The notes under the pieces were generated by a model, which did no database searches, was not told the origin of the DNA, and saw only the letters and a list, made by a program, of their open reading frames with translations. This document shows, one piece after another, positions 15,978 through 20,021 of a stretch of 64,000 nt of DNA; within the stretch, counting starts at the first letter, position 1, and each line of letters opens with the position of its first letter. This DNA is from Poronia punctata (Eukaryota > Ascomycota > Sordariomycetes > Xylariales > Xylariaceae), in contig MU401473.1 of assembly GCA_022579005.1 (NCBI GenBank), positions 1 through 64,000 of the forward strand. Direction: 5' to 3'. Both the position numbers and the translations under genes were made by a program.

Positions 15978-18558
15978 TTATGCGCCATATGCTACCTGTC
16001 CCATGGGCTTGTCTTCTCCCATGCCGGGGGCCATGAAATTTGTGTCGGGGTTGCCGGTCGCTTTGGCGGCTGAGCAACGCGCCATCGTTGGTGAACTATT
16101 TTGCGGGTTGTCATGTTAGCCGGGGTACCTGGGCCATGAAATTGTAGTGGGATATATGCAGGACGTTAAAACTTACCTCCTGGAGATGACATCGGTAAAG
16201 TAGAAGTCTTCGATGACCTTCTTCAGGGGTTCGCCTGTGGGCTTGGCACCCTTGTTCTGATCCACTAACTGTACCTTGCTCAGTTGCGGGAGGGATGTGG
16301 GCTCAACGACGTCGTAGGCAGCGAGTGCGGGGCTGATTTCGGCCATTCTATCCCGGACCATGGCAACGTCATCGTAGGGTAGAGGGGCGCCGAGGAATTC
16401 ACTGGCAGCACGGATGATCTTCCAGTCGGTGCGAGCAGCGCCAGGTAGCGAGGTAGCAGCACGAGTCATCTGCACACGTCCCTCGGTATTGACGTACGTA
16501 CCGGCCTTTTCTGTGTAGGCGGCGCCGGGGAGGACAATGTCGGCGATTTGGGCACCCCGATCACCATGGTGGCCCTGGTAGACGACGAATGCATCCTTGG
16601 GGATATCAGCCTCGTTGAACTCATCGGCGCCGAGCAACCAGACGAATTTGGGCTTCGTCTCGGCAACAGCGGGGGATGGCGTCGTGAATCCAACCTCGAA
16701 CGCACCGGCCCTCGAGGCAGCCCGCTGCAGGATGTTGAAACCGTTGTGCTCTTCAGTCAAGAAGTTGGCGGCATTCTTGTCGACAAAGGTGCCGATAAGC
16801 TCGTAGAAAGCCTTGGCATCGGGGTGCTCGGTGACACCAGATCCGACGACAATCATGGGCTTCTTAGCAGCTTGCAGTTTCTTCCCAAAGGGACCGGCCA
16901 AGGCCTTCTTCAAGGCAGCGTAATCGGTACCGAGGTGCTCAAAATCAAAGGTCGAGTCCCATGTCTCACCGACGACGCCAATCTCCAGCTCTGACCGTAG
17001 CCACTGCTTACGAATTCTGGCGTTGAGCACAGCAGCCTCGTGTCTGGGGTTGGTGCCGACGAGAAGCATGCAGTCGACCTCTTCGACAGCCCAGATGGTC
17101 GAGTTGAACAGGTAGTTGGAGCGGACGTCAACACCGTGGGCGAGAGGGCTGCTTCCGGAAGGCATATCGAGGGCCAGGTTTTCGTGGCCGAGCTTGTTGG
17201 CTAGATCCTTCATGGCCACCAGAGACTCGACTTCCGTCAGCTCGCCGGCGATAGCTTTGAACTCGTTCGGCTTGGGGGCCAGATGCTGATAGGCTGCGCC
17301 GATCTCGGTCAAGGCTTGCTCCCAGGTGGCGGGTTCGAACTTGCCCTCCCTGCGGACAAGCGGCATGGTCAGACGCTGTGTCTTGAGGCCATCACAGGCG
17401 AAACGGGTCTTGTCGTTGATCCATTCCTCGTTTACATCGTCGTTGAGGCGAGGCTGGACGCGCATGACCTCGAGGCCACGGCTATCCACTCGGATGGCGG
17501 ATCCTAGGCCGTCCAATACATCGATAGACTCGGTCTTCTTCAGCTCCCACGGACGGGCTCGGAAGGCATAGGGCTTCGACGTAAGGGCGCCGACGGGGCA
17601 GAGATCGATGACGTTGGCAGACATTTCAGAATCGAGGTTTTGCTCCAGGTATGTGCCGATCTGGATATCGTTACCGCGGCCGAAGGATCCCATCTCGGGC
17701 GCACCAGCGACGTCGTTGGCGAACCGAATGCACCTCGTGCAGTGAATACACCGGTTCATCGAAGTCTTGATCAGAGGGCCGATATTCTTGTCCTCGACGG
17801 CTCGCTTGCCACCAACCTCGTGGAAACGACCCCGGTCGGCACCGTAACGCATAGACTGGTCTTGAAGATCACACTCGCCACCTTGGTCGCAGATAGGGCA
17901 GTCTAGGGGGTGGTTCGCTAGCAGAAACTCCATCACTCCTTCTCTGGCCTTGTGGGTGAGCGGCGAGTTTGTCTTGACCACCATGCCGGGTTGGACGGGC
18001 CAGGCGCAAGATGCGACGGGTTTGGGCGCGCGTTCGACTTCGACGAGGCACATACGGCAGTTACCGGCGATCATGAGTTTTCTGAGCGATATTGTTAGCA
18101 AAACAAGAGGTCGGCCGTGGGCGGGGACGCGATGCATTCGTACTCATGGTAGCAGTATCTGGAAGGTCACAACGGTTAGCTAAACAACGCACACTCCAGC
18201 GAGAATATGCAGGCTTTCGAATGACGATTGCTGACCTTGGAATTGTGACGCCTGCCTTCTCGCAAGCCTGGATTAATGCCGACCCGGCTGTCGTCTAGTT
18301 AGTGGCGGGATCTTTGGCTCCCCGTGACGAATAACCCTCATTCTCGGCTGCATACCTTCTATCGACACTTTCTTTCCATCTGCGGGCGAATTAGCAAAGA
18401 ACTCGAACCATATTCCTCCCCCTAGATGTAGATGACGGACCAACTGTGAGCTCGACTTCGGCCGGGCGTTGAGAAGTAGCGGAAAAAGCTCTCGAAGCCG
18501 TGGCGGAGAGCTGCCGGGGCGTCCGCCAAGCCGAACGAGCCAGCGTATGTCGAAGCAT
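15978..18558 (-). CDS. nuo78: NADH:ubiquinone oxidoreductase 78 kDa (75 kDa/NDUFS1-type) subunit, complex I
   Basis: Iron-sulphur subunit of the complex I peripheral arm, mitochondrial matrix side. Six exons on the minus strand: 18558-18441, 18379-18356, 18287-18236, 18158-18144 (a 15-nt microexon), 18081-16177 and 16095-15978, giving 743 residues, about the usual fungal length. Residues 1-28 are an Arg/Ser/Ala-rich presequence. Ligands are all present: N1b 2Fe-2S cysteines 67, 78, 81 and 95; N5 His127 with Cys131, 134 and 140; N4 Cys181, 184, 187 and 231. The molybdopterin-oxidoreductase-like domain follows. The last exon gives the tail SPTMARCSAAK...NFMAPGM; without it the protein would stop falsely at ...ISRR. 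The first intron has an uncommon GTCCGT donor but is needed to give the conserved VDGKK junction. The other splice sites are standard. Confidence 0.95.
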
Positions 18559-19839
18559 CGTGTCGTCCCGACGGAATACGAGGTAGAGGGGAGAGAGGGA
18601 CGGACAGGGGAGGAGGTCGCGGGTGGCGGTCAATTGAATGAACCAGCTCGAGTGTTGACGTCTCTTTTTCACTGGGTTGAGACGGCGCTCGGGGCTTGAA
18701 TCGAAGTCAAATCGCCTCTCAGTTGCGGATTACAGAGCAAGCACTGACCATTGGCTGCTCTGATTGGGTAAGTGGTCTAATGGATAGACACTAGTCACTT
18801 AAGCGGGTGATTATATCGAGAGCCCGGCTATTGGTCAATACCTTTGGTGCTCTCTACATATCCCCACTCAATTTCCAGTTTAGGTAACCCACAGAGAGCT
18901 ACAATTGGGACACGGACCACATCGCACTATCCACTTAAACCTAGGGTATTTAAAACTGGACGTGGTTTTCACCTTTTGCTTGCTTTCTCTTCTTTCCCAA
19001 ACAAAATTGTACCATGGGCACATTTTATTGTAGGTGAGCTTGGACAGGGACCTGGTTCGCCAGGACTCTTGTTGCAATCGAGTCTTCCTCTATCTTGTGC
19101 TCTAGAAAAACTATATGGACGCCGATTATGGAAGCACGTGAAGAGCTCTTTGGTTTTAATGATCACTGCCTCTTACCGCCGGTCGTTACATTCCCTTTTC
19201 CTCATTTTCTCCTGTTGAACGGTTTAGTAAGTATACTTGGGGCACCGGATGTCGTCCCTCTTCCAATGAGGCATGGATGGAGGCCCGTTGTTCTCGACTG
19301 CTCGTTATTGGTTATTTTTCGATCAACTGAAACGGCGTGTCTAGTAAATTCTACATGTCTCGTCGTATGCTGGATCTGCCCTTGTCTGCCCACGAATGTG
19401 ATTGGGCAGCGTAAATCGAAATCTCGGCTCGCGTCTTAGCGTTGTAGATTCTCTATAAATTTTATAAAGACCCGACATGTAGAGCTTGGGATCGTAGATG
19501 CACGGTTATCGCGTCCTGCTGTTGCGCTTGATACCTAGTGTTTCTTTCATATGAACCTATGATGGATTCTTGGTCGTGCCACAACATGCGTTTGATGTCG
19601 ACCAGCTCTTCTGCATCGGAAACATTGAGAAGCGCGAAACGAAGTTATCTAAAAGGCATATTCACTGTCGTAAAAAAATCAGAAACGCATTCGGCAGCAG
19701 AGGCAGTGTTTGGCAACTGCAGTTGCATCCTCTTGTTATTTTCTTGCTTGACCTCTCTCGCTTCGTACATCATTAGCCCCGGGACCCGATTATCGCTAGA
19801 CAGTCCGGTTTAGCAAAATCGCCAATCACCAATAACCTC
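18559..19839. other. Intergenic between nuo78 and tRNA-Lys
   Basis: Contains the nuo78 promoter (right of 18558). Short open frames on both strands have no family resemblance. A weak tRNA-like A-box at about 18769-18790 was examined and rejected. Confidence 0.45.
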
Positions 19840-19971
19840 GCCCGGTTAGCTCAATCGGTAGAGCGTGAGACTCTTAATCTCAAGGTTGCGGGTAAGTTAT
19901 CTGTTCAAATCTTGTCTGAGTTCTTATCCCATATTAACATCATATCAAAGGTTCGACCCCCGCATTGGGCT
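19840..19971 (+). tRNA. tRNA-Lys(CTT): tRNA-Lys(CTT) interrupted in the T arm by a GT-AG intron
   Basis: Exons 19840-19891 and 19951-19971 join to a 73-nt cloverleaf: acceptor GCCCGGT/ATTGGGC (two G-T pairs), D stem GCTC/GAGC, anticodon arm TGAGA-CTCTTAA-TCTCA with anticodon CTT, T arm GCGGG-TTCGACC-CCCGC, and discriminator T. No intron sits at the canonical position 37/38. Instead 59 nt separate the fourth and fifth bases of the T stem. Removing GTAAGT...AAAG restores a perfect T arm. Because the insert ends in G, the genomic junction still reads GGTTCGACC, so the internal B box is intact; the A box (TAGCTCAATCGG) is also intact. A T7 run follows at 20015. The structure is seen directly; expression is inferred. 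Confidence 0.9.
19892..19950 (+). other. Spliceosomal-type intron inside tRNA-Lys(CTT)
   Basis: 59 nt with donor GTAAGT, acceptor AAAG and a branch-like ATTAAC with its A at 19937, 13 nt before the acceptor. Size and signals match the protein-gene introns in this window (mostly 57-104 nt). It lies between tRNA positions 52 and 53, not where the tRNA splicing endonuclase normally cuts. Whether the spliceosome, the endonuclease or another route removes it cannot be read from sequence. Confidence 0.8.
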
Positions 19972-20014
19972 CAATTCCTGATGCCTTCCGGCTTACCGGG
20001 AGTAGCAACCACTC

Positions 20015-20021
20015 TTTTTTT
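20015..20021 (+). terminator. Pol III T-run terminator for tRNA-Lys
   Basis: Seven consecutive T residues begin 44 nt after the tRNA 3' end, the first adequate Pol III stop on the coding strand. This predicts a primary transcript with a long 3' trailer. Confidence 0.55.

Follow-up and report, generated by a model that had tools for sequence, protein, structure and literature searches.

In textbook accounts, introns of nuclear tRNAs are removed by the tRNA endonuclease and those of mRNAs by the spliceosome, the normal substrates of which are Pol II transcripts. The U6 snRNA gene of fission yeast carries an mRNA-type intron in a Pol III transcript that is spliced by the spliceosome; an origin by reverse splicing is proposed in passages of PMC10484740. 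In excerpts of two reviews, nuclear tRNA introns are located at 37/38, the exceptions being those of a red alga and of nucleomorphs (PMC4090602, PMC3978253). Breaks outside 37/38, the T arm included, are described for tRNA genes of the red alga Cyanidioschyzon merolae and of nucleomorphs; the passages concerned either credit the tRNA endonuclease with their removal or offer no explanation (PMC9602550, PMC4090602, PMC3978253). The string 'spliceosom' has 0 occurrences in PMC4090602 and one in PMC3978253, where it concerns protein-coding genes. For tRNAscan-SE 2.0, a search for non-canonical introns is described for archaeal tRNAs in a section of PMC8450103. Among the matches listed from the open-licence literature, none named a nuclear tRNA gene with a spliceosomal intron.

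Poronia punctata (Xylariaceae) is a dung-dwelling fungus. Its assembly comprises ~45 Mb; the stretch analysed here (the window) covers the initial 64 kb of contig C20 (304,650 bases). A 509-aa protein of Poronia punctata is 100% identical to a window reading frame over the aligned part (66% of that frame, which continues into an intron), and two more window proteins match named Xylariaceae at 96% and 90% identity. Nine of the 15 tRNA-Lys(CTT) genes found in the assembly very probably (probability about 0.85) contain, between tRNA positions 52 and 53, an intron of the U2 spliceosomal type, are transcribed by Pol III and are freed of the intron by the spliceosome, with a single gain as the most likely origin. 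Like U6 of fission yeast as described in those passages, they would have a spliceosomal intron in a short RNA made by Pol III. The host is a spliceosomal RNA in fission yeast, whereas in Poronia punctata it is a tRNA family, interrupted in the T stem and in 9 gene copies. The U6 gene of Poronia punctata itself is intronless, unlike that of fission yeast. With the genes of C. merolae and nucleomorphs, as excerpted, the Lys(CTT) genes share breaks outside 37/38; they differ from them in conserved spliceosomal signals. Canonical 37/38 introns, also present in this genome, are located in the anticodon loop, are 10–34 nt long and belong to other machinery. tRNA genes would join the hosts of spliceosomal introns as a new class, and a tRNA family carrying them would break the division between tRNA and mRNA introns. 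If the reading is true, tRNA precursors made by Pol III are open to the spliceosome, and splicing can directly limit decoding. A natural test is at hand, with a single cell encoding this tRNA in nine interrupted and six uninterrupted copies. Judged from sequence, the finding is real, strong and surprising.

The window gene and its family

The window gene (19840–19971, forward strand) is composed of the following features.

19840..19891, + strand: tRNA-Lys(CTT) exon 1, positions 1–52, with A box and anticodon CTT
19892..19950, + strand: 59-nt intron at tRNA position 52/53, bearing spliceosomal signals
19892..19897, + strand: 5' splice site GTAAGT, preceded by exon GG, complementary to the U1 5' end ATACTTACCT
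19934..19938, + strand: TTAAC resembling a branch site; its branch A, 19937, lies 13 nt before the end of the intron
19948..19950, + strand: 3' splice site AAG (TAG in the other 8 interrupted copies)
19950..19958, + strand: B box GGTTCGACC; in the unspliced gene the first G comes from the intron (same in 9/9 interrupted copies)
19951..19971, + strand: tRNA-Lys(CTT) exon 2, positions 53–73
20015..20021, + strand: T-run T7, presumed Pol III terminator by sequence

The window gene minus its insert is a 73-nt tRNA-Lys(CTT) with a complete cloverleaf, letter-identical to the uninterrupted gene L017 (C270:12024-12096, also labelled L028; 68.2 bits to the Rfam tRNA model; called tRNA-Lys(ctt) by ARAGORN). 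The 3' end of the window gene is misplaced by two finders (ARAGORN, 19839–19923; cmscan, 19840–19894), so that similar genes may have been missed. The whole-genome tRNA family search covers 19840–19971 in one match of 50 bits. A preliminary description of this gene had reported the 59-nt insert at 52/53 with its 73-nt product, the GTAAGT donor, TTAAC 13 nt from the end, the terminal AG and a B box kept intact in unspliced DNA by the last G of the insert. Its coordinates and letters are correct, and the B box statement holds for all nine interrupted copies.

Fifteen tRNA-Lys(CTT) loci are present in the assembly, nine interrupted at exactly 52/53 and six uninterrupted. The same 15 were obtained in two whole-assembly searches, with the window gene and then with the uninterrupted 73-nt tRNA as the query. 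Nine interruptions at one position with like signals are more than chance, as counting these genes, a check proposed in the preliminary description, makes plain. The observation is confirmed and is larger than first described: the account of a single gene was real, narrower than the nine interrupted genes found, and left the conserved trailer (below) unremarked. In 8/9 interrupted copies all 73 exon nucleotides are the same; L016 differs by a single additional C in exon 1. T68 (ATTGGGC, acceptor strand) is common to all nine interrupted genes and uninterrupted L017; C68 occurs in the remaining five uninterrupted genes.

Homology among loci starts no more than ~25 nt before the tRNA and stops no more than ~35 nt past the T-run, with an isolated 20-base match in addition (BLAST of 14/15 loci, all but L016, with flanks of 1.5 kb). 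Because homology ends close to the transcribed unit, the exon identity does not come from recent segmental duplication; gene dispersal through RNA is possible. Conservation was measured among copies inside one genome. A contiguous pattern of Lys(CTT) plus donor had 0 matches in collections of viral contigs and genome contigs, neither of them fungal and both silent on other fungi.

A box, whole B box and a run of at least five T, 32–51 nt past the 3' end, are present by sequence in 15/15 loci. The A box is unaffected by the insertion point. The last G of the intron restores GGTTCGACC, so the B box is intact before splicing. All 15 copies thus appear to have a type 2 promoter and a terminator for Pol III. 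Inside the nine introns there is one T4 and no longer T-run (1 versus 2.1 expected; the depletion is not significant).

L017 is the sole uninterrupted gene of the T68 subclass. It is either ancestor-like or the result of intron loss, perhaps via spliced RNA. L016 (C43, near 390–560) has a 91-nt intron of two tandem units, both of which begin with GT, contain CTAAC and end in TATAG. With the extra exon C and a broken trailer hairpin, this copy may be decaying.

Splice signals and intron interiors

The nine introns are 59, 65, 65, 61, 62, 64, 66, 64 and 91 nt long (91 nt in L016, 59–66 nt in the other eight). GT...AG borders are present in 9/9. Donors are GTAAGT (7/9), GTGAGT (1) and GTAAGC (1); acceptors are TAG in 8/9, the window copy having AAG instead. 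The branch-like sites are CTAAC (5), TTAAC (2), CTGAT (1) and CTAAG (1), the last two being weak; YTRAY fits 8/9, and the branch A lies 13–17 nt from the intron end.

Mean pairwise mismatch over the 36 pairs is 0.074 at donor positions 1–6 versus 0.637 at positions 7–20. It is 0.074 in the last three intron bases versus 0.667 just before them. In the branch pentamer it is 0.206 versus 0.698 and 0.634 on the flanks, the branch value being lowered by a script that chose sites in favour of YTAAC; donor and acceptor were not chosen so. Unrelated sequence of the same composition should give about 0.72 (hand calculation from base counts). (C/T)TAAC at the right distance occurs in 7/9 introns and was reached by 0/5000 dinucleotide shuffles, which ignore copy kinship; the contrast in divergence between signals and interiors is therefore the better test. 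Stretches such as ACATGTTCA are still common to some introns, which speaks for common descent. The pattern as read from the genome indicates long selection for spliceosomal removal, with the interrupted copies probably not dead.

Eight mRNA introns from three window genes, delimited by spliced protein alignment, are 57–97 nt long; the 59 nt of the insert are near the low end of this range, as the preliminary description had it. Their branch sites are CTAAC (5), CTAAT (2) and CTGAT (1), 11–20 nt from TAG or CAG. In branch site, spacing and length the tRNA introns match these mRNA introns (n=8). mRNA donors are varied, with GTAAGT in 1/8 versus 7/9 for the tRNA introns; the donors of the tRNA introns are stronger than the mRNA sample and not typical of it. 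Four U1 candidates are present in the genome, all under the Rfam cut-off. The two that were inspected (L075 and L076) both begin with ATACTTACCT and are able to pair with GG|GTAAGT. Window 16173–18137 (− strand), with upstream exons, is a gene for the 78-kDa subunit of NADH-ubiquinone oxidoreductase; it has five introns of 61–81 nt.

The structured trailer

All 15 Lys(CTT) genes (window 19962–20021 and L009–L022) have a trailer of 32–51 nt before the T-run. In the window gene the possible helices are as follows.

19962..19984, + strand: possible alternative helix H1, tRNA 64–71 (GCATTGGG, 19962–19969) with trailer CCTGATGC (19977–19984), loop CTCAATT
19985..20002, + strand: trailer hairpin H2 (CTTCCGG/CCGGGAG), directly abutting H1
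20005..20010, + strand: trailer GCAACC, possible helix H3, complementary to exon-1 GGTTGC (19884–19889) just before the 5' splice site

For H1, trailer CC(T/C)(G/A)ATG(C/T) can pair with tRNA 64–71 over 8/8 bp, G-U included, in 15/15 genes. H2 has 7/7 pairs in 13/15 genes (6/7 in L013, 3/7 in L016); after base shuffling the mean is 0.05 of 15 genes, relatedness ignored. Ten different stem sequences occur among the 13 fully paired hairpins, which implies many paired changes. H3 is weaker than H1 and H2: a CARCC-type stretch able to pair with GGTTGC is present in 10/15 genes and is matched by 3/2000 shuffles, kinship again ignored. Below the Rfam threshold, four of the 15 loci gave tRNA only and no family for the trailer.

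In partition-function folds, H1 prevails over the acceptor stem in 8/9 unspliced precursors (exception L013) and in 2/6 uninterrupted genes. It also prevails in 7/9 spliced forms with the trailer attached, so splicing alone would not free the tRNA fold. Uninterrupted genes also have the trailer, which is therefore not merely a splicing aid.

As controls, 24 other tRNA loci were taken, two of them dropped for wrong strand (L035, L036), and T-run position and fold were compared. Among the 22 retained, the T-run lies within 30 nt in 17, and two have none within 75 nt. Trailers of 40–42 nt, folding at −4.0, −9.8 and −4.2 kcal/mol, occur in L042, L044 and L051; long trailers are therefore not entirely confined to Lys(CTT). 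The trailer of the Lys(CTT) genes may delay the tRNA fold and so make a T-stem intron tolerable, with release by trailer removal or a helper protein.

Proposed processing of the interrupted genes

In the preferred explanation, Pol III would transcribe the interrupted gene, with the A box untouched, the B box whole thanks to the intron G, and the T-run ending the unit. The trailer would hold the 3' half back from folding in the precursor. U1 would pair with GG|GUAAGU and U2 with the CUAAC-like site; the spliceosome would excise the insert, after which T arm and acceptor stem would form and the ends would be trimmed. The product would be a 73-nt tRNA identical to that of L017. The intron would have been gained once in one copy and multiplied as the gene dispersed, each copy then drifting under selection on splice signals only. 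The machinery of mRNA splicing would be needed to make a tRNA, as the conserved signals suggest.

Of the two options named in the preliminary description, a Pol III transcript passing through the spliceosome or a tRNA endonuclease put to new use, the first is strongly favoured by donor, branch and acceptor being held in nine copies with diverged interiors, and the interpretation in that description is to that extent supported. Inserts that are endonuclease introns in a non-canonical place, cut by SEN at a bulge-helix-bulge (BHB)-like motif and joined by tRNA ligase, are very improbable. T-arm introns are known in some eukaryotes, at 53/54 in C. merolae (an excerpt of PMC9602550), and passages of two reviews hold the splicing endonuclease responsible for introns of this sort (PMC4090602, PMC3978253). 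The enzyme has been described as a reader of structure, whereas the conserved elements here are GTAAGT, CTAAC and AG. In this genome, canonical introns sit in the anticodon loop, the usual SEN site, and the insert is at 52/53, not 37/38. BHB pairing in the nine genes does not exceed that of shuffles in 9/9, by a crude and weak test, since the score also failed to set apart five canonical 37/38 introns (6–7 of 10 versus 5–7). An origin of the interrupted copies as dead or SINE-like relics of tRNA-Lys, the cell relying on the six uninterrupted genes, is very improbable. Six intact genes do exist, which the preliminary description had named as one part of the case for a dead copy, and the interrupted ones could for that reason be silent; homology between loci stops near the transcribed unit, as in retroposed copies, and, according to a passage of PMC4090602, inserts in the D or T arms of eukaryotic tRNA genes mostly affect a single gene out of many synonymous ones, and such genes are presumed pseudogenes. 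Here 9/15 genes are affected, all at one position, and damage is apparent in L016 alone. The interrupted copies do not have the appearance of dead genes: splice signals, B box and T-run are retained in 9/9, and decay would hardly leave exons unchanged in 8/9 beside nearly saturated interiors. Least probable of all, and very improbable, is a tRNA contained in a longer Pol II transcript, an ordinary intron of which interrupts it, so that the spliceosome acts and there is no Pol III unit. Pol II transcripts are the usual substrate of the spliceosome. Against this stand flanks that differ among the 14/15 loci compared, the promoter boxes and the T-run close behind all 15 genes, and the single T4 as the longest T-run within the introns, a scarcity that is not significant.

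A wider form of the spliceosomal reading is tentative and on balance doubtful. The AAG-codon tRNA, a major nuclear tRNA of this fungus, would be made largely by the spliceosome, and the trailer would be a folding switch, blocking tRNA fold, end trimming and export during splicing. It would pair with the tRNA 3' half and with the sequence preceding the 5' splice site, and trailer loss or a helper would release the fold. The switch is weakened by the trailer helix still prevailing in most spliced forms that retain the trailer. If the AAG reader is made in this way, tRNA supply depends on pre-mRNA splicing capacity.

Within the gene sets tested, T-arm introns are private to Lys(CTT). U6 (1) and SRP RNA (1) gave full-length model matches with no break, and 5S genes, 47 scored of 1940 candidates, are all full length and unbroken. 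Matched copies of Thr(AGT) (5/5), Val(AAC) (12/12) and Gln (CTG and TTG, 8/8) are uninterrupted. Asn(GTT) has 1 uninterrupted copy and 4 with anticodon-loop introns of 10–13 nt, one of these four misread as Thr by ARAGORN. The tRNA family search scored 63/2574 candidates, and the genome tRNA set is incomplete, so that other isotypes may have T-arm introns as well. Canonical anticodon-loop introns (ARAGORN, 10–34 nt) occur in Lys-TTT (three), Ala(TGC), Leu(CAA), Leu(TAG) and Asn (four). All three copies of tRNA-Lys(TTT) seen (L051, L059, L060) have such introns, 22–31 nt long by ARAGORN. Both lysine tRNAs of Poronia punctata seem to need splicing, by apparently different machines.
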